Below, piece after piece: positions 1,120 to 59,407 of a stretch of DNA of 64,000 nucleotides. The notes under the pieces are model-generated. The model did not search any database, was not told the DNA's origin, and was given only the letters and a program-made list of their open reading frames with translations. The position numbers and the translations under genes are program-made. Positions within the stretch are counted from its first letter, which is position 1. Every line of letters begins with the position of its first letter. Source of the stretch: an uncultured Lachnospiraceae bacterium (lineage in GTDB: Bacteria; Bacillota; Clostridia; Lachnospirales; Lachnospiraceae); the NCBI GenBank assembly GCA_947164605.1, contig CAMUXE010000001.1, forward strand, positions 62,001 to 126,000, in the 5' to 3' direction.

Positions 1120-3606
1120 TTAATAATATGTAACGAATGTATTGCCACCCTGTGAAAAATACTTGCTGACATTTTTCATGCTATCAGTTTTCTTTACGCC
1201 CTTGCTATCAATATAAGTCACATTATTAGAGTCATAGGCCAAAACCTGTGCATAGCCATCAAGAGTCTTTCCTATCAAAGGCTTTCCTTCGCTCACATAC
1301 CAGAGAATCATGCTCACATTGCTTCCGCTTATAGTAATCCTCTTGGCTGAATTAGCAGCTACTTTTGCATCGGCACTATTTATGCTATCACCAATATCGC
1401 CAGCCATAGATATTTCACTAGCTTGAGCGCTTGAAGGCTTAACACTGTGATATGCCAGCTTTCCATCAGCATCTATCACATATCCATTATTGTCCGCTGC
1501 AGATATAATAGCCTTTTCAAGCTCAATATAAGCTGCTACAAAACGCCCATTTCCATAGACATAGTAAAGATTAGATTCCTTAATCTCCTTGGCTATATCA
1601 GGTATTTTGTCATCATTAAATCTCACTGCATTGGCTCTGCTTATTTTTATAGCTGATGCATCTTCTATAGCCTGAGGCAGGACAATTATCAGCTCTGTCT
1701 CCTTGAGAGAAGAAAAAGTACTTGTAAGATATGCGACAGCTTTCTTATCATTCTCATCCTTGTTTATGAGCTGATCTATAGAAGTTGATGTATAGGTATC
1801 TCCAGACTTTGTCACTCTTGACATATTGAATCTTAAGCCGTCAACCTCTGTATCTGTCACATAAATTCCGTCTTGCTCATATTTCTTTATATTTTCATAA
1901 TTCTCATTCAGGATATTGATAGAGTACATAGGAAAAACCTGGTTTGACAGTTCATCTACTAAAATATCGTCCTCATGGGCAATACCATATATAAAATCAG
2001 TCTGTATAAAGGCCAGAGCTTTTACCTTATCTCCATCATCAGCCTTTATCTCATAACTTGTACCCTTCTCCATGTTAAAGATTTTAATCTTTTTCATATC
2101 ATCAGGCTCGACATAGGCAATAATTCGCCCATTATCAGCCACTACATAATCCTGTCTTTTAAGGTCTGTCACCTCAGTCATAACCTCTTTACTGTCTATA
2201 TCAATCGCATAGAGAGTTCCGTCTATCATACAATAGAAAAGTCTATCCTTTAAGTAAGCTAAGGAACAAGTGTTGGCCATAACCTTCCAAGGTGTGCTGT
2301 CAATCGGTATGAAAACTAATTCATCAACATTTGCCGCTTTATTGGAATAGCTGTATAGAGAGATTCCAACCTTTCCTTCATGCTTACCCCTGTTCATATA
2401 GCCATAGACAGCAAAGACCACATCGCCATCATCGCTAACTGATACTATTTTGTAATCATGCTGCTTAAGCCTCTCCCTCTTATTGTCACTACCCTCAGAT
2501 TCAAAAGTAAATACCTGGGTAAAGGTCTTATCCTTTTGCGAATAAAGCCAGAGATTGCCTTCATTTTCAAACACAAGCTCTGTATTGTCAGCATTTGCAG
2601 CCAAACTGACATCTTTATCATATGTTATTCCGAGATTAATATTTCCTGTTTTTGTAACTGCATTCGACGCGTCAAATATTTGACTTGCCTTTCTGCTATA
2701 GTTGAGCAGGTAAATCTTGCTTCCGCTATTTCTGAGTCTGTAATACTCATAGACATTGAGACTAGAGAGCTTATCCTCCTCATCGATTAGGCTAATCCTA
2801 TAGGTAAGACCGACTTCGCATACCTCAGGGCTTGCCGAAATTAGGTTGTAAGCAATCTCGCCCTCTATCTTAGTATCTAAATTTCCCCAACCAATCTGAG
2901 TCTGGGTATTCTTAATATTTACCGAAGAAAAATCAGTATTATCCTGGGTTCCGTCAGTCTCTATATAGCTTGCAATATTTGACAATTTTGAGTCGTCATA
3001 AGTGTAGGAAGCAAAGTCAGATGCAAAATTAAAGGCTGCATCTATATCTGAGTCCTGTCCCTTTTTTATAATCGCATAAAAGTAAGACTCATCCCTCTTA
3101 TCTGTTTTTAAATTAAGTTCAAGCAGGTAGTCCTTGCCATCCTCGATAAGATTCTTGATTTCAAGATTTAAATTATAACCTCCAAGAGTCTCCTCAAAAT
3201 CTTTAAGCTCAGTATTCTCTATAAGTTCACGGCTTTCCTTGTCCCTTATCTTGTAATTGACAGCCTCAAGCTCAGCGCCGTAAGACTCCACATAAAGCCT
3301 CAGCTTTCTGTCCTGTGGAATCATACTTACATTCCCCTCATAGCCTTTGGCATCAATTGGATCAACATAACCAATCATCTGATTATACTTCTTGTCTTCT
3401 GGGCTCAAAGTCCACACCAAAGGCATAGTCGCTATGTCCATAGTGGATGTAGCCTTAATTTTAGTCTGATAGGGCATACTTAGGTAGGTTGCAACCAAAG
3501 TAAGCAGAAAAATCAATATATATATATAAGCATTGCCAGCAGTCTTATCTTTTTTCCCACTGTCAGCTAGACTAAAACCTCTTTCCTTGCTATTAAAAAA
3601 GTTCAC
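1120..3606 (-). CDS. Large membrane-anchored protein of unknown function, propeller-like
   Basis: I do not recognise the family. The 828-residue product has a basic N-terminal tail, one membrane segment at about residues 27-44, and a long extracytoplasmic part rich in short beta-like segments containing aspartate, asparagine and aromatic residues (for example NLWLYSQ, GTLYAIDI and NGRIIAYVE), which resembles a beta-propeller or a chain of WD/TolB-like strands. The start is a GTG with an AGAGGA sequence upstream. It lies directly before a class A penicillin-binding protein, so a cell-wall or sensory role at the outer membrane face is plausible, but this is inference from context only. Confidence 0.75.
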   Translation of the reverse strand: MNFFNSKERGFSLADSGKKDKTAGNAYIYILIFLLTLVATYLSMPYQTKIKATSTMDIATMPLVWTLSPEDKKYNQMIGYVDPIDAKGYEGNVSMIPQDRKLRLYVESYGAELEAVNYKIRDKESRELIENTELKDFEETLGGYNLNLEIKNLIEDGKDYLLELNLKTDKRDESYFYAIIKKGQDSDIDAAFNFASDFASYTYDDSKLSNIASYIETDGTQDNTDFSSVNIKNTQTQIGWGNLDTKIEGEIAYNLISASPEVCEVGLTYRISLIDEEDKLSSLNVYEYYRLRNSGSKIYLLNYSRKASQIFDASNAVTKTGNINLGITYDKDVSLAANADNTELVFENEGNLWLYSQKDKTFTQVFTFESEGSDNKRERLKQHDYKIVSVSDDGDVVFAVYGYMNRGKHEGKVGISLYSYSNKAANVDELVFIPIDSTPWKVMANTCSLAYLKDRLFYCMIDGTLYAIDIDSKEVMTEVTDLKRQDYVVADNGRIIAYVEPDDMKKIKIFNMEKGTSYEIKADDGDKVKALAFIQTDFIYGIAHEDDILVDELSNQVFPMYSINILNENYENIKKYEQDGIYVTDTEVDGLRFNMSRVTKSGDTYTSTSIDQLINKDENDKKAVAYLTSTFSSLKETELIIVLPQAIEDASAIKISRANAVRFNDDKIPDIAKEIKESNLYYVYGNGRFVAAYIELEKAIISAADNNGYVIDADGKLAYHSVKPSSAQASEISMAGDIGDSINSADAKVAANSAKRITISGSNVSMILWYVSEGKPLIGKTLDGYAQVLAYDSNNVTYIDSKGVKKTDSMKNVSKYFSQGGNTFVTYY

Positions 3607-24399: not shown

Positions 24400-25158
24400 C
24401 TAAACCTCCACTCTCTCAAAGACCTTGCCAAGAGCTGCATGTATCAAAAGATTTGCCGAAGAATCATAAGGAGTCTTTGATTTGTTTATAAGAACCAGCT
24501 TATTTCCCCTGTAATAATCAATCATTCCCGCTGCAGGATAGACCCCAAGAGAAGTTCCGCCGACTATAAGCACATCAGCCTCACTAATCAACTTAATAGC
24601 CTTGCTTATATCATCCGAGTTAAGGGACTCCTCATAGAGGACCACGTCTGGCTTTATCAAGCCTCCACAGCTACAGCGAGGCAGGCCTTCAGACTTTACA
24701 ATATAGTCTAAATCGTAGAATTTGGCACACTTGGTGCAATAATTTCTCAAGACACTTCCGTGAAGTTCTACAACTTCCTTGCTTCCAGCCATCTGATGAA
24801 GGCCATCTATGTTCTGAGTCACAATACCTCTAAGTTTTCCAGCCTTTTCTAAAGCTGCTAATTTCTCGTGTGTTATTGATGGTTTTGCATCCTTATAGAT
24901 CATCCTGTCCTTGTAGAATTCATAAAATTCCTCAGTTCTGGCCCTAAAAAAACTGTGGCTGATAATGGTCTCAGGCGGAAACTTATACTTTTGATTATAG
25001 AGACCATCAGGACTTCTAAAGTCTGGGATTCCGCTCTCAGTTGACACGCCAGCTCCTCCAAAAAAGACAATATTGTCGCTCTCATTCAAGTATTTCAAAA
25101 AAGTCTCTATCTTTTCCTGTAAATCCTTCTCAATATCTTCTTTAGCCAAATCCAACAT
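24400..25158 (-). CDS. cobB: NAD-dependent protein deacylase (sirtuin)
   Basis: Removes acetyl or acyl groups from protein lysines using NAD+. Motifs: GGAGVSTESGIPDFRS for NAD, TQNIDGLH and the catalytic histidine in VELHGS, then four cysteines (CTKC and CSCGG) for the zinc site. Length 252 residues, normal for bacterial class U or III sirtuins. It lies downstream of the CpsD-like gene, separated by a small hairpin at 25211-25233. Confidence 0.94.
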   Translation of the reverse strand: MLDLAKEDIEKDLQEKIETFLKYLNESDNIVFFGGAGVSTESGIPDFRSPDGLYNQKYKFPPETIISHSFFRARTEEFYEFYKDRMIYKDAKPSITHEKLAALEKAGKLRGIVTQNIDGLHQMAGSKEVVELHGSVLRNYCTKCAKFYDLDYIVKSEGLPRCSCGGLIKPDVVLYEESLNSDDISKAIKLISEADVLIVGGTSLGVYPAAGMIDYYRGNKLVLINKSKTPYDSSANLLIHAALGKVFERVEV

Positions 25159-25210
25159 AGGCTTCCCTCCCTAAGAAAAGCAAAAAGTAATTTTTTTTCT
25201 AAAGACTAAA

Positions 25211-25233
25211 GTGCTAAGCAAAAAGCTTAGCAC
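25211..25233 (-). terminator. Hairpin between the CpsD-like gene and the sirtuin
   Basis: Perfect 9-bp stem GTGCTAAGC / GCTTAGCAC with a five-base loop. The T-run beyond it is interrupted, so it may be a weak terminator. Confidence 0.55.
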
Positions 25234-25244
25234 CCTAAATCATC

Positions 25245-25841
25245 TTATTCGTAGCTCGCTACACCGAGACAGTAACAGCCCCTGCGATCCAAGGCCTGAA
25301 CTCTCAACTCAGCAAGTGTTTTTGTATATGTTTTGGCTTCAATAAAGGCCAATGTCCTATCGCACAGAGCTGCCATCTTGCCCTCATTGTCAGATTGAAC
25401 TATAAGGATGTCATAGCTTCCCTTCATTGTGTCCAAGAGCTCTGACAGCTTATCCTTATATGTATCCACCCCGGCAAATGTGTCGACATCGCCAGTGAAC
25501 ATAAGGTGTAGGTTCTGCTGACTTGTAAGGCATAAAAGTTCCTTAGGATCCATAGGAAGACTCACATAATCCGTCACACCCTTGAGGGACTTTCCCAGCT
25601 TGAATTTACCTAAAAATACTTCCTTAGAAAAATCTCCATCTATAAAGAGAACCTTTCTGCCCTTCTTTGCAAGTATGTTTGCGAACTTCAATGCCAATCT
25701 GGCATTTCCAACCATGCCTATGCTTCTGATTGTCTCGTTCTCAAAAGAGATCTTAGTCAGGACATTATTCACTGTATCTGAAATTGAAGCCTGTTCAGTG
25801 TCTGTCATCTCGACAAGTTTATCAATCTTTATACTAAACAT
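25245..25841 (-). CDS. CpsD-like P-loop-less protein (degenerate BY-kinase fold)
   Basis: The 198-residue product resembles the cytoplasmic BY-kinase (CpsD/Wzc) of capsule regulation, with a Walker A-prime strand VLFIDGDF at residues 64-71 and the following order of strands. At the place of Walker A there is only IGMVGNARLALKF (41-53), without the GK[ST] needed to bind ATP phosphate, and the C-terminal tyrosine cluster is missing. It follows the CpsC-like gene by 10 bases. So it may be a pseudo-kinase that works only as a partner of the CpsC-like protein. The family call is by pattern and has moderate certainty. Confidence 0.65.
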   Translation of the reverse strand: MFSIKIDKLVEMTDTEQASISDTVNNVLTKISFENETIRSIGMVGNARLALKFANILAKKGRKVLFIDGDFSKEVFLGKFKLGKSLKGVTDYVSLPMDPKELLCLTSQQNLHLMFTGDVDTFAGVDTYKDKLSELLDTMKGSYDILIVQSDNEGKMAALCDRTLAFIEAKTYTKTLAELRVQALDRRGCYCLGVASYE

Positions 25842-25851
25842 ATGTCCCTCC

Positions 25852-27813
25852 TTACTTTAAGATCATGCCAAGCAACTCTGAGCTTGACTTAATTGATCCT
25901 ACTGCCTCTCTCAAAGCCTTTAATTCAGCCTCTTCCTTAAGCTTGCGTTCCTCTTCTTTTCTAGCCTTTTCTTCCTGCTCAGATGCAAGTCTCAAGGCTT
26001 CATCAGCCTTTCTCTTAGCCTCTTCTATCTCTCTGGCTTCCTGTTCAGCCGCAAGTCTTGCTGCCTCTTCAGCCTGCTTAGCCTCCAAGGCCCTCTTCTC
26101 TTCAAGAGCTCTAGCCTCTTCCTCTTTCTGTCTCTGAGCCTTTGCTAAGTTTTCTGCTGCAATTCTTTCAGCCTCTGCCTTTACTAAGGCCTCCGCTGCA
26201 AGCTTCTGTGCCGCAAGCTTAAGAGCCTCATCAGTTGTGTCATTCAACACATTATCAGATACCTCTGCAACCTTTTCTTCAGCCTGCTTAATCTTTTCCT
26301 GAGCTTGAATAGCCTCAGCTTCCTCAGCCTTTCTTGATTCTTCCATACGAAGATTCTCAGCTTCCCTAGCCTTCTCTATATCAGCCTCAGTTATCTCATC
26401 TTCCTTAAATTTCTTTTTAAAGAAGCCCTTAAACTTTCCTAACTTGCTAAGCTTAGATTCAGGCTTCTCATCACTCGCCTCAGCCTCTGATCCATCCTCA
26501 GTGTCAGCCTCTGCTGCAGTATCTTCTGCCTTTTTAGCTTCCTCAGCCTTTGCAGCTTCCTCAGCCTTTCTTGCTTCTTCGGCTTTTCTTGCCTCCTCAG
26601 CCTTTCTTGCTTCTTCGGCTTTTCTTGCCTCCTCAGCCTTTGCAGCTTCCTCGGCTTTTCTTGCCTCCTCAGCCTTTCTAGCTTCCTCAGCCTTTCTTGC
26701 CTCCTCAGCCTTTCTTGCTTCCTCAGCCTTTCTTGCTTCTTCGGCTTTTCTTGCCTCCTCAGCCTTTGCAGCTTCCTCAGCATCCTTGCCTGACTCAGCC
26801 TTTGCTCTCTCCTCTTCTCTCTGCTTAGCCTGAAGTTGTGCAACTTCCTCCTCAGAGAGCAGGAGCATAGGATTTACTGCATACTCAGTGTTTTTACGGC
26901 GTCCGAAAAGACCTTTTCTTTCTCTCTTCTTTTTCTTATTCTTATTATCCTCAGGTTCTAGTTCCTCAAATGCATTGATTTCGGCATCTGACTCAGTTTC
27001 ATGAGGAGCTGGAGTCTGACTTCCTTCAGTCTTATCTTCAGTCTTATCGCCCTTTTCAAGCATTCCGATTACATCTGCAATATTCTTTGACTTGTCAATC
27101 TGCTCTTCAAGAGTCTGATCAGACTGAGCCTCATCTTGAATTCCATCAGAAGCTTCATCCTTGTCATCCTCATCTTTATCAGAGCTAAGTTTATTCCTAG
27201 GACTTCTTTTCTTAGAACTTCTCTTCTTAGAAGGATTGCCTTTAGATGCTTCCTCAGTCTTAGGTTTAAATGCTGCGATTGCAAGCATAAGAACAAGAAG
27301 AATTGCAGCTGTTACGCCGGCAGTGATCTCACCAATTCTTATTGTCTTATTCATCAATTCTGGCTTAAATGACTGATTGGAGATATCACCCTCCGAAGAA
27401 ATCATAACAAGTGCTATTGGTACAATCTGCTGAATAAGATTTGCATTGCCTGCAACCGCATCAACATAGCGCTTTGCAGTGTTCTGATCCTTATATGTAA
27501 CTGTGAGCTCAATTATATTGCTGTTTGGCTTTGAAACAACTGTCAGATACTTAGCTATATCCTCATCAGTTTTAGCGTCTTCCTTGGCCGCTTTAATTAC
27601 CGAATCTGACTTAAACACATCAACAAAGTCATCTCTAAAGCCACCATTTTCCGCGCGGATGGATGGCTCATAGCTTGTTCCTGGTGTTATAACCAACTTT
27701 GCTGTAGATGTATAGAGCGGAACTATATGTGAGCTCTCATAGAAATATCCTGCAATTGTTCCTATCAATGTCACCAAAATCAGAACCAAGGCGCATCTTG
27801 CAAATTTTTTCAT
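25852..27813 (-). CDS. CpsC/Wzz-like membrane protein with giant repeat tail
   Basis: The 653-residue product has two membrane segments (about 7-25 and 161-182) with an outer domain between them (residues 26-160, starting VPLYTSTAKLVITPG), as in CpsC/Wzz chain-length or kinase-adaptor proteins. The rest, about 470 residues, is cytoplasmic and highly charged. It contains 13 tandem KAEEA[RAK] hexapeptides, KEEE-rich coiled-coil stretches and a basic patch (KKKKRER). Such a tail is far longer than in known CpsC proteins. The partner CpsD-like protein lies downstream. The tail could be a scaffold or a low-complexity spacer. Confidence 0.75.
   Translation of the reverse strand: MKKFARCALVLILVTLIGTIAGYFYESSHIVPLYTSTAKLVITPGTSYEPSIRAENGGFRDDFVDVFKSDSVIKAAKEDAKTDEDIAKYLTVVSKPNSNIIELTVTYKDQNTAKRYVDAVAGNANLIQQIVPIALVMISSEGDISNQSFKPELMNKTIRIGEITAGVTAAILLVLMLAIAAFKPKTEEASKGNPSKKRSSKKRSPRNKLSSDKDEDDKDEASDGIQDEAQSDQTLEEQIDKSKNIADVIGMLEKGDKTEDKTEGSQTPAPHETESDAEINAFEELEPEDNKNKKKKRERKGLFGRRKNTEYAVNPMLLLSEEEVAQLQAKQREEERAKAESGKDAEEAAKAEEARKAEEARKAEEARKAEEARKAEEARKAEEARKAEEAAKAEEARKAEEARKAEEARKAEEARKAEEAAKAEEAKKAEDTAAEADTEDGSEAEASDEKPESKLSKLGKFKGFFKKKFKEDEITEADIEKAREAENLRMEESRKAEEAEAIQAQEKIKQAEEKVAEVSDNVLNDTTDEALKLAAQKLAAEALVKAEAERIAAENLAKAQRQKEEEARALEEKRALEAKQAEEAARLAAEQEAREIEEAKRKADEALRLASEQEEKARKEEERKLKEEAELKALREAVGSIKSSSELLGMILK
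26529..26767. repeat. 18-bp coding repeats (KAEEA[RAK] hexapeptide)
   Basis: Thirteen near-identical 18-base units in frame in the CpsC-like gene, consensus CCTCAGCCTTTCTTGCTT on the plus strand. The number of units may vary between strains. Confidence 0.9.
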
Positions 27814-27840: not shown

Positions 27841-28608
27841 TCAATCGTTGATTTCCTTGAAATAATCCCAACTGATATATTTCACTGTACCACCGTCAAC
27901 CTCTATATAGAGCTGACAGAAATCATCTTCATCAGTAGCATAACCCTTCTTGTAAGGGACATCCATATAAGTATACTCAAACACATAGTTATTAGTGTAC
28001 TCAATCAAGTTATCGCCATTGACATTGAGAAGACCATATTCCACCTTACCTGCAGGCTTAATCTTCTCAAGCTCAGCAAGCGTGTAATCTCCATAGAGGA
28101 ATTTGCCTAAAAGTTCAGTATTATCCTCTGAGAGATAATTCTTGTTATATGGATCGTCATCGTGGTAGAAAGTTTCAAGAACCTTGTCAAAACTGTCACC
28201 GATCTTGATGCCTCTGGCAAATGTATGATCTTCACTTGAAGATGTAAGAGCTGTAAGCACTGATTTGCCATCAATATTCTCAAAAAAGAAGGTGAGATCT
28301 GTATAAAAATAAGTCTTAGCTCCCTCTTTTTCATCGATAGCATCAGGATCACCAAATGCTGCTTTCACCTCGTCCTCACTGGCCTTGTACTTGATAGAGT
28401 CTATAATCATATCATCAGGTCCAAACTTTGCAGATGTGTTTTTTTCAATAACATCATCTACATGCTCAACCTCTATAGGTGCCTTATCTTCCGAGTCCTG
28501 AACCAGGACCATCTCCTTGCTCTTGCTTGAACAAGCCGCCATAGATGCCATAAGTGTGAGACTTAAGCCCAAAGCCACTGCTCTTTTAATTTTTTTAATT
28601 CTAATCAT
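27841..28608 (-). CDS. Putative lipoprotein of unknown function
   Basis: The 255-residue product begins with a basic region, a hydrophobic stretch and the lipobox ASMAAC with C26 as the lipid-modified cysteine, so it should be anchored outside the membrane. The mature part is acidic with no recognised domain. It lies 27 bases upstream of the CpsC-like gene and may belong to the same envelope system. Not recognised as a known family. Confidence 0.8.
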   Translation of the reverse strand: MIRIKKIKRAVALGLSLTLMASMAACSSKSKEMVLVQDSEDKAPIEVEHVDDVIEKNTSAKFGPDDMIIDSIKYKASEDEVKAAFGDPDAIDEKEGAKTYFYTDLTFFFENIDGKSVLTALTSSSEDHTFARGIKIGDSFDKVLETFYHDDDPYNKNYLSEDNTELLGKFLYGDYTLAELEKIKPAGKVEYGLLNVNGDNLIEYTNNYVFEYTYMDVPYKKGYATDEDDFCQLYIEVDGGTVKYISWDYFKEIND

Positions 28609-36172: not shown

Positions 36173-37783
36173 ATGGATACTAGAATTTATGTCATGACTC
36201 ACAAGACTTTCACAAAGCCTGATGACGAGCTCTACACAAGCCTGCATGTAGGAAGAGCAATCAGCGCAGACCTAACTTATCTAGGTGATGACACCGGCCA
36301 GTCCATTTCCGCCAAAAACCCAAATTACTGTGAGCTGACCGGAATCTATTGGCTTTGGAAAAATGTAAGATGTGATATTGTCGGCATCTGTCATTATAGA
36401 CGCTATTTTGTCGTCGACGAAGATTATATAAAAAAGGACTATATTGAAAAATGTCTTGAGACCTATGATCTTATCCTTCCACATTCTTGTGCTTCTAAAC
36501 ACAAAAGTCTTTATGATCACTACACAAATACACACTATAAGTGTGATATAGATCTCACCAGAGAAGTAATAGAAGACTTAAGTCCCGACTATCTTCAGGC
36601 ATTTGACCTTTGTATGGACTGCAACCTTGAATCTATAGGTAATATGATGATATGCAAGAAGGAAATCTTTGACTCCTACTGTGAATGGCTCTTCAAGATT
36701 CTATTTGCAGTCGAAGAAAGATGCGATATCAGCTCTTACAGCCAATTCCAAGCCCGCATATTTGGCTATCTCTCTGAAAGACTGCTCAGGGTATGGGTTT
36801 TAAGACACGCCTACAAGGTCAAGGAAGTAGAGGTAAGACTTATCGAGCGCGATAAATCCCTTGACGGTTCTCAAATTCTAGCCTTAAAGAAGGGTATCAC
36901 TCAGCTCTATCTAAATGATTTCACCAATTCCTTCATTAAGTCTAGCTTAGAGGAATGGCAGGAGCATCTGGACTTAAGCAAAGAGGATAACACGGTTGAT
37001 TTCCATGGCAAAATACCTGTCTTTAGTGCATGGTGGCAAGGAATTGATGATATGCCTGATTTAGTTGAGACTTGTCTAAAAAGTATTGATTCCGCTCTCC
37101 CTCAGGATCTATGCGAATTTCATCTTATAACTTTGGACAATGTTACAAACTACTGCCTATTTCCTGATTCTATCCTCGAAAAATTCAAGAGTGGACATAT
37201 TTCTCTGACCTGCCTCTCAGACATATTAAGAACTACTCTCTTGACGAAGTATGGAGGAATGTGGATTGATGCTACTTATTTTTGTGCTAAAGAATTCCCA
37301 AGGAAACTCTTCGCTGATCTCATTGAGTCCAATGAGTTAAAAAAAGACTACCTTTGGACCATCAAAAACTCAGTGCCAAAGTTCAGGCATGATGTAAGCC
37401 AAGGACGATGGGCTGGCAATATTTTGATAGCCAGCAAATCCCATCCCCTCTTCCGTTATATATCCAATGCCTTCTTTGACTTCTTTAAAGAACATGATGA
37501 TATACCTGATTACTTCTTTATCGATTACATCTTCAACAATGCCTACGATTACATAGGAGAAATAAAAAGTGTTATAGATTCTGTCCCTATCAGCAATCCA
37601 AAGGTTCTTGATCTGGCTGATTTATTGAATTCAAAATTCAAGGCCCAAGTTTGGACTGACTTATGTAAAGACACTTGGCTCTTTAAGCTTAACAGACGTG
37701 CAGTTTTATCAGAGAGGAATATTGCTGATCAATTGACCTTCTACGGCTATATTCAAAGCTTATATAAAAATAAGGAGTTATAA
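36173..37783 (+). CDS. DUF4422 - capsular polysaccharide glycosyltransferase fusion
   Basis: The 536-residue protein has two domains. Residues 1-235 are DUF4422, a glycosyltransferase-related domain of capsule loci: IYVMTHKTF at the start, then SAKNPNYCELTGIYWLWKN and VGICHYRRYF. Residues 275-520 are like the capsular polysaccharide synthesis / sugar-binding DXD glycosyltransferases: FSAWWQGIDDMPDLV, then LSDILRTTLLTKYGGMWIDAT, with the aspartate of the DXD region. Both domains would act on a nucleotide sugar at the inner membrane face. A broken homologue of its first domain lies at 59536-60042. Confidence 0.85.
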   Translation: MDTRIYVMTHKTFTKPDDELYTSLHVGRAISADLTYLGDDTGQSISAKNPNYCELTGIYWLWKNVRCDIVGICHYRRYFVVDEDYIKKDYIEKCLETYDLILPHSCASKHKSLYDHYTNTHYKCDIDLTREVIEDLSPDYLQAFDLCMDCNLESIGNMMICKKEIFDSYCEWLFKILFAVEERCDISSYSQFQARIFGYLSERLLRVWVLRHAYKVKEVEVRLIERDKSLDGSQILALKKGITQLYLNDFTNSFIKSSLEEWQEHLDLSKEDNTVDFHGKIPVFSAWWQGIDDMPDLVETCLKSIDSALPQDLCEFHLITLDNVTNYCLFPDSILEKFKSGHISLTCLSDILRTTLLTKYGGMWIDATYFCAKEFPRKLFADLIESNELKKDYLWTIKNSVPKFRHDVSQGRWAGNILIASKSHPLFRYISNAFFDFFKEHDDIPDYFFIDYIFNNAYDYIGEIKSVIDSVPISNPKVLDLADLLNSKFKAQVWTDLCKDTWLFKLNRRAVLSERNIADQLTFYGYIQSLYKNKEL

Positions 37784-58205: not shown

Positions 58206-59369
58206 CTAATTCATAGCAATTTCAAGCATCTGAGTCAGAATATTTTTATATGTATAATTGTCCTTGATTTTTCCAAGTCCATTGGCCGCAATCTGGGCCC
58301 TTTCAGCATCATGTGCCAGGTAATATCTACATTTATCCAGCAAATCCTGCTCAGATTCAAAAATCACCATATCTGAACCCGGCTCAAAAAAGTCATAAAA
58401 CTCGCTCTGGTAATTTGAAAGCAGAAAACCACCTGCGCCCATGACGTCAATAGCTCTGAGCGGAATACCAGTTCTTATACTCCTTAGAGTAATATTTAAA
58501 TTAATCTTGCTGTCATGAAAGACAAGCGGACATTGCTCATAATAATCGACCTTGCCCTTAGCCGCAGCCAGAGGCAAAAGTTTTGAAATATCGCCCGGCG
58601 TATAAACATTAATCGAAAACTGCTTAGATACCGCATTCAAAAGGCGAGTCCTCTCCATAGTCGCAAGCTTTCTTGCAATAAAATAATCGCTGTATATATA
58701 TTCGACCGTCTCAACGCCATACTTATTTGTCTTCACAGGAACGCTCTTCTGCATATCAGCGACGATTTCAGGCGTCAGAAGCTTTGGAATAAAGTATTCG
58801 CCGTAAACTCCCAACTGAGCTTCCATAATAGCATCAAGATAGCCCCTTGTATACTCATTTAAGTCATGCAGGCGATCAAAGAAGTTGTGCTCCTCATTAT
58901 AGAGCTGCCCGACAAATGCTATGTCACCATCATACTTCCTTCGGTCTGCCGCCTCAATCTGTCTTGTCACTCTGTCCACATTGCAGGCCAGAGGGCAGTG
59001 ATAGACCGTGTTGATTCCCTGCCTTGACAATTCCTCAAACTGGGCCTTATCAAAAATAAAAACATGATTATTCTTATTGATAAGAGTGCAAGAATACAAA
59101 AGCACCTGAGGCGAATCATATACATAGGCCACATAAGGCAAGTCATGCCTCATGCAGGCATTAGATATAATAGGGCTATAGTTAAAGGTAAAAAGCAAAT
59201 CCGGCTTAAAGCTCTCAACTTTTATATCAAAATCGCTATCAAATTCAGCATTTACACGTTCTCTTTTTCTGTCATCCTCAATCGCAAGTACCTCATGTCC
59301 CATGTTTTTCAGCGTCTCTACAACATCAAGCACGCCAAAATCTTTAATTTCATAAATTAAAACTCTCAT
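58206..59369 (-). CDS. CgeB/DUF3880-type glycosyltransferase
   Basis: The 387-residue product has the DUF3880 N-terminal half (YEIKDFGVLDVVETLK, then LLFTFNYSPIISNAC and YVYDSPQVLLYSC) and a GT4-like C-terminal half with FHDSKINLNITLRSIRTGIPLRAIDVMGAGGFLL. The last segment is the family signature. Such enzymes decorate spore or surface glycans. The ATG at 59369 has GAGGAAC upstream. It is a paralogue of the protein at 59902-61086 and is separated from it by a broken DUF4422 gene. Confidence 0.88.
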   Translation of the reverse strand: MRVLIYEIKDFGVLDVVETLKNMGHEVLAIEDDRKRERVNAEFDSDFDIKVESFKPDLLFTFNYSPIISNACMRHDLPYVAYVYDSPQVLLYSCTLINKNNHVFIFDKAQFEELSRQGINTVYHCPLACNVDRVTRQIEAADRRKYDGDIAFVGQLYNEEHNFFDRLHDLNEYTRGYLDAIMEAQLGVYGEYFIPKLLTPEIVADMQKSVPVKTNKYGVETVEYIYSDYFIARKLATMERTRLLNAVSKQFSINVYTPGDISKLLPLAAAKGKVDYYEQCPLVFHDSKINLNITLRSIRTGIPLRAIDVMGAGGFLLSNYQSEFYDFFEPGSDMVIFESEQDLLDKCRYYLAHDAERAQIAANGLGKIKDNYTYKNILTQMLEIAMN

Positions 59370-59407
59370 AAGTTCCTCACCATCTAATTTGTGCTTAATA
59401 TACATCA

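Follow-up and report, generated by a model that had tools for sequence, protein, structure and literature searches.

A CpsC/CpsD-like gene pair of Lachnospiraceae with a P-loop-less partner and a tail of variable length

How might a protein pair related to the capsule regulators CpsC and CpsD work when the kinase-like partner has no P-loop and the membrane protein carries a tail of about 468 residues after its second membrane segment? The question is raised by a locus of an uncultured Lachnospiraceae bacterium, within a 64,000-nt stretch that we call the window (assembly GCA_947164605.1, contig CAMUXE010000001.1, positions 62,001 to 126,000 of the forward strand). Both genes lie on the minus strand. 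The first (25852-27813) encodes the long-tailed CpsC-like or Wzz-like membrane protein, P0002, of 653 residues, and the second (25245-25841) encodes the 198-residue CpsD-like protein, P0001. Ten nucleotides separate the stop of the former from the start of the latter, which is preceded by AGGAGGG, a plausible ribosome-binding site. An earlier note on this DNA had proposed that the pair derives from CpsC and CpsD, and both HMM searches and predicted folds agree with it. The CpsC-like protein matches TIGR01006 (E 1.1e-10, 41 bits) and the CpsD-like protein matches TIGR01007 (E 1.1e-13, 51 bits), each below the respective cut-off of 296 or 108 bits; PF02706 scores 14.5 with the CpsC-like protein, against a cut-off of 25.5.

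The N-terminal part of the CpsC-like protein is predicted to resemble Wzc. In the AF2 model, two helices with hydrophobic sequences, at residues 2-29 (TM1, 27727-27810, minus strand; with the basic MKKFAR before it) and 151-181 (TM2, 27271-27363, minus strand), flank an alpha/beta domain of the Wzz type (residues 33-149; 27367-27717, minus strand), matching the two membrane segments and outer domain originally described. Residues 1-179 align with Wzc 7nhr (VIA-align Z 14.8, rmsd 3.8 Å, 163 aligned residues). Wzc is the nearest fold, followed by KpsE, and WzzE is lower (Z 7.8). The design of an outer Wzz-type domain between two membrane segments is thus supported by the profile and the predicted fold. 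A Pro-rich stretch that precedes TM2 in canonical CpsC is reduced.

The partner was modeled with a mean pLDDT of 90 (AF2, 14 sequences), and the model has a BY-kinase fold. Its best structural matches are the kinase domains of Wzc, Etk, CapB, BceF and VpsO (VIA-align Z 18-21.5), including Wzc 7nhr (Z 21.5) and CapA1B1 4jlv (Z 20.7, rmsd 2.5 Å, 184 aligned residues). MinD and ParA are the second-best matches. We rejected membership in the MinD/ParA family, as their Z of about 13-14 and below is clearly lower than that of the BY-kinases.

Although the fold is retained, the catalytic parts are not. We aligned 15 variants of the CpsD-like protein with 44 relatives that bear GK[ST], mostly canonical CpsD proteins and a few distant ParA-like ones. 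None of the 15 variants has the Walker A GK[ST], and all share an identical 6-residue gap at the P-loop; a second gap follows Walker B in all of them. In the window's protein, SIGMVGN aligns with TSCGPDEGKST of the canonical CpsD encoded in the same genome. The deleted site corresponds to residues 42-46, GMVGN (25704-25718, minus strand), and in the AF2 model strand 40-44 turns straight into helix 47-59 there. The Walker A' strand FIDGD (residues 66-70; 25632-25646, minus strand) is retained, so the observation that the partner keeps IDGD without a GK[ST] P-loop holds. Within the Walker A' motif DxDxR, both Asp residues are invariant (15/15), and the Arg is lost in 14 of the 15 variants and present in one. 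Walker B keeps its Asp in 5/15 variants and its Pro in none. The last Arg of the oligomerization motif EX2RX2R is found in 0/15 variants versus 40/44 relatives, and the PPNP motif is also lost. Finally, the chain stops at the last core strand with no further extension, and the C-terminal Tyr cluster is gone: the last 25 residues contain 0-2 Tyr in the variants and typically 7 in the relatives.

The two invariant Asp residues could mean that a metal or ligand still binds, as might be expected of an ATPase of another family with its nucleotide site elsewhere. We regard such an ATPase as highly improbable, because the best fold and profile matches are all to BY-kinase domains and there is no other P-loop. 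A literal GKS does occur at residues 83-85, in a KLGK loop. We rejected it as a P-loop, since it comes after Walker A' and GK[ST] is not a conserved feature of the family at this place. Judging from the motifs as a whole, the CpsD-like protein is a BY pseudokinase in which the fold is kept and the P-loop and Tyr cluster are gone, and it cannot be a normal kinase. The note had inferred that the kinase function was replaced; it is better described as lost.

The loss of so many hallmark residues, along with the low-complexity repeats of the other protein, might suggest a decaying remnant, i.e., a duplicated kinase gene that is losing function while its partner gathers repeats. However, the CpsD-like gene is under purifying selection: three close pairs give dN/dS values of about 0.19, 0.13 and 0.10. 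The reading frames are intact, adjacency is conserved across loci, the model reaches its high pLDDT, one deletion is kept throughout the clade, and the C-terminal tip of the CpsC-like protein (see below) is conserved. We find decay scarcely credible. The variants form one clade (support 97/92), which requires the state to change only once on the tree. As the root of this tree is not fixed, their origin may lie either within Lachnospiraceae CpsD or next to it. Scores fall into two groups, with 247-284 bits for members of the family and at most 131 for the relatives that come next.

The pair occurs side by side at 13 further loci of Lachnospiraceae type, in Lachnospira multipara, L. pectinoschiza, Lactobacillus rogosae ATCC 27753, [Clostridium] fimetarium and several MAGs. 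Most of these loci share one neighborhood, with sir2, rpsF, ssb and rpsR. The two genes are adjacent at every locus long enough to show it; one locus (L078) is cut by a contig end, leaving only the CpsD-like gene. Eight of 397 genomes in a family-level sample and 7 of 392 in an order-level sample carry the pair, all within the window's own family. Two MAGs with the pair are labeled Bacteroides. For one of them, whose contig equals that of G118, this label looks wrong, given that G118 groups with the window's family.

How could the two proteins interact? The CpsC-like protein ends with a conserved tip, SSSELLGMILK (residues 643-653; 25855-25887, minus strand), which is a putative docking strand based on alignment and a motif match. 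The tip aligns in 13/13 rows with the consensus E[VI][LI]G[RK]I[PR]K, in which Gly is invariant; the window's version, LLGMILK, is weaker than this consensus. Canonical CpsC proteins of the same family have VLGxIP after TM2, and CapA1 ends with PVLGSIQKFN. We built a matrix from 32 canonical motifs only and scored it along the whole tail of 14 proteins. The tip ranks first in 9/14, the window's protein among them, and its distance from the end is the same in these; three others have it in second or fourth place. In the remaining two (L079 and L082), the tip IFGRVKK ranks 14th and 17th. Because the 14 rows are related, this result supports one ancestral motif and does not amount to 14 independent tests. 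Compared with LGxxVLGxIP, the short tip is kept, whereas the sequence of the canonical preceding helix and the Phe are not, and statistical support is present in most but not all rows.

In Staphylococcus aureus, the C-terminal end of CapA forms an alpha-beta motif on CapB, where it touches the CapB N-terminus and its Phe stacks on the adenine (PMC3795738). The tip studied here resembles the canonical CpsC docking strand VLGxIP in sequence, minus this adenine-contacting Phe. The N-terminus of the CpsD-like protein, MFSVNIDKL, is among its most conserved stretches. That the Phe and the P-loop are both missing and the partner's N-terminus is conserved would fit docking without a nucleotide.

Between TM2 and the tip lies a variable, charged tail (residues 186-640; 25894-27258, minus strand). 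AF2 assigns low confidence to residues 187-320, 431-474 and 641-653 and long helices to 321-433, 476-521 and 529-639, and on such low-complexity sequence it tells little beyond helix propensity. The tail contains exactly the 13 tandem KAEEA[RAK] hexapeptides that had been reported (residues 350-427; 26533-26766, minus strand). In 1000 shuffles of the tail that preserve composition, this hexapeptide occurs 0.08 times on average and at most 3 times. The underlying DNA has an 18-bp period with 14.1 copies (26528-26781; TRF), and the protein unit is kept although the copies use different synonymous codons. Helix 321-433 spans the array. Since large hydrophobic residues make up just 2% of this helix, we infer that a single helix describes it better than a coiled coil does. 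Within the otherwise acidic tail, the region 26400-26930 of the window encodes the basic patches KKKKRERKGLFGRRK and SKLSKLGKFKGFFKKKFK (about residues 295-312 and 455-470 of P0002), which are possible membrane- or nucleic-acid-binding spots.

Across the family, the tails range from 98 to 561 residues, are mostly unalignable and acidic overall, and have no Cys. Those of L. multipara and L. pectinoschiza differ by a 28-residue insertion, and those of two other loci (L066 and L076) by insertions of 29 and 32 residues, while their partner proteins are 97-98.5% identical. An acidic-hydrophobic motif, [DE]3[ILV][ILVF], is present in 8/11 tails (L070-L076 and L081; for example, DEDIL or DDELV), with its first match 31-68 residues past TM2. 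It is absent from the window's tail, and the counts in individual tails are mostly not significant. As the earlier note had surmised, the tail is not a recognized globular domain, which we rejected because its matches are of low complexity only (Plasmodium HRP, EntC wall-binding repeats) and the tails of relatives are mostly unalignable. The note's suggestion of a scaffold or anchor needs revision: the tail does not appear to be a scaffold that was simply added, but sits between TM2 and the conserved tip and looks like a variable tether.

We next consider the genes around the pair. A predicted lipoprotein with weak BamE/CAP_assoc_N similarity is encoded just upstream in the window (27841-28608, minus strand). 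In most relatives, a lipoprotein gene is likewise found upstream, either adjoining the pair or with a nucleotidyltransferase gene in between. Just downstream is the gene for a Sir2-family deacylase (24400-25158, minus strand). Long loci show the gene order (lipoprotein or manA)-(nucleotidyltransferase)-C-D-sir2-rpsF-ssb-rpsR-gdpP. Among the 13 loci with both genes, 10 (L066, L070-L072, L076-L080 and L082) have an 8-nt overlap of the CpsD-like gene with sir2, which suggests translational coupling. In the window, this overlap is replaced by an 86-nt gap that holds a stable hairpin (25205-25237, minus strand; fold z -3.8). The hairpin is a possible terminator with a weak T-tract; it received no call in a terminator scan, and neither the terminator nor the promoter scan gave a result above shuffles.

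In no genome examined is the pair inside a polysaccharide cluster. Sugar genes near it in some genomes are the sole link of this kind to a glycan pathway, and a search of the window's own genome, which had no internal positive control, gave no match to the sugar nucleotidyltransferase that neighbors the pair in many relatives. The window also has a gene for a DUF4422 and Caps_synth protein (36173-37783), about 8 kb from the pair and a possible surface-glycan gene, a glycosyltransferase gene (58206-59405), and an 828-aa ORF (1120-3606) with zero Pfam matches at 1e-5.

This neighborhood of sir2-rpsF-ssb-rpsR-gdpP rather than glycan genes, the frequent sir2 overlap and the second-best resemblance to MinD and ParA could be explained if the pair were a tether from membrane to cytoplasm that has ceased to act in polysaccharide export. 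In that case, the outer domain would sense or anchor to the wall, and the tail and the ParA/MinD-like pseudokinase would recruit a cytoplasmic process, for example the deacylase, ssb or nucleoid machinery of the neighboring genes. The retention of the pair in genomes that lack a canonical kinase above the cut-off points the same way; two of these genomes had no match to Wzy_C. However, other Lachnospiraceae have the order sir2-rpsF-ssb without the pair, so the neighborhood is independent of it; the pair therefore either joined an existing neighborhood or was lost elsewhere. For the same reason, we rejected the claim that Sir2 is proven to be its partner. Moreover, the pair at L074 has no adjoining sir2, the only such case in that gene order. 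We consider it unlikely that the pair has this recruiting role. A related reading is, in our view, somewhat more doubtful still: a Gram-positive family of membrane tethers that left polysaccharide export, in which a pseudokinase on a length-tunable tail brings a cytoplasmic partner to the ring of outer domains, and the tail evolves by gain and loss of repeats. Under such a scenario, the neighboring Sir2 deacylase could possibly regulate the tether by acting on Lys residues of the tail.

Glycan genes elsewhere in the host genomes are also relevant. The initiating sugar transferase PF02397 is present in 8/8 host genomes, so a glycan pathway exists for the pair to serve, which again speaks against a role outside export. 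Wzy_C is above the cut-off in 4/8; this is weak evidence either way, as Wzy is too divergent for its absence to count. A canonical CpsB-CpsC-CpsD cluster lies on another contig (C22) of the window's genome. This cluster and the resemblance of the tip to canonical tips raise the idea that the pair regulates the genome's own CpsC/CpsD, with the tail delivering an activating tip or the pseudokinase entering the canonical ring as a decoy. A BY-kinase is reported to have alternative activators in some cases (PMC5035731). On the other hand, three of the eight host genomes (G067, G118 and G414) carry the pair and have no BY-kinase above the TIGR01007 cut-off. These genomes are 99% complete, and G414 is a single contig. 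Dependence of the pair on a canonical kinase is thus unlikely, and the ring motif EX2RX2R is lost in the variants. We regard regulation of the canonical system as very unlikely.

We therefore favor, with some confidence, the reading that the pair is a phosphorylation-independent relative of the polysaccharide co-polymerase CpsC/CpsD (CapA/CapB), in which a docking tip on a variable tether controls glycan export by binding. It probably works by binding and not by phosphorylation. From the motif, its place in the protein and the conservation of the partner's N-terminus, the tip would be expected to bind the pseudokinase as an edge strand, in the way that the CapA tip binds CapB. The stretch from TM2 to the tip would be a tether of variable length, made of disordered and helical segments, that could keep the pseudokinase away from the membrane. 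By analogy with EcpK/EpsV, binding and unbinding, instead of Tyr phosphorylation, may control how the outer domain oligomerizes while a surface glycan is exported.

The locus adds Gram-positive Lachnospiraceae, among them Lachnospira, a genus of gut and rumen, to a phosphorylation-independent class of PCP-2 that was recently proposed for Gram-negatives. It is also a clean example from nature of a pair that stays under selection despite the deletion of the P-loop and the loss of the phosphorylated tail. In addition, it is a natural experiment on tether length, with 98 to 561 residues leading from the membrane ring to the cytoplasmic partner.

The earlier note knew of no described system with this design, but pairs of PCP-2 and BY pseudokinase have been published: EcpK/EpsV of Myxococcus xanthus and HfsB/HfsA of Caulobacter each consist of a PCP-2 without a kinase domain and a stand-alone BY pseudokinase (PMC12004946). 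The pair studied here has the same feature, as a kinase fold without catalytic motifs adjoins a PCP-2-like protein without a kinase domain. The EcpK and HfsB pseudokinases also lack Walker A, A', B and the Tyr tail, and docking via the cytoplasmic PCP C-terminus was modeled for them; EcpK interacts with EpsV and is important for exopolysaccharide (PMC12004946). The known pairs are Gram-negative and belong to Wzx/Wzy pathways, whereas ours is Gram-positive and in a housekeeping locus. Their docking tails have 25-27 residues, in contrast to 98-561 here. Given that the cytoplasmic tail of EpsV has just 25, the long tether needs a reason of its own. Furthermore, EcpK and HfsB have their own C-terminal helix, whereas our pseudokinase has nothing beyond its last core strand.

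CapA/CapB of S. aureus and CpsC/CpsD of streptococci are likewise encoded by two genes and have a Wzz-type outer domain, a BY-kinase fold and a C-terminal tip VLGxI. By contrast, our pair has neither their P-loop and Tyr cluster nor their EX2RX2R and terminal Phe, and the juxtamembrane segment of CapA is short. CapB1 is an inactive BY-kinase, yet it binds ADP (PMC3795738). The canonical CpsD of the window's genome has the same general fold as the CpsD-like protein (33% identity over 123 residues). Unlike the pair, it has an intact GPDEGKST and the tail YGKYYGKYY, and its CpsC has 250 aa. Our search of the open-access literature found no paper on a Gram-positive tethered pair. The principle of a PCP-2 with a BY pseudokinase is thus already published for Gram-negatives (PMC12004946); what is new here is its Gram-positive setting outside glycan clusters, the deletion of the P-loop, and a length-variable tether before the putative docking tip.
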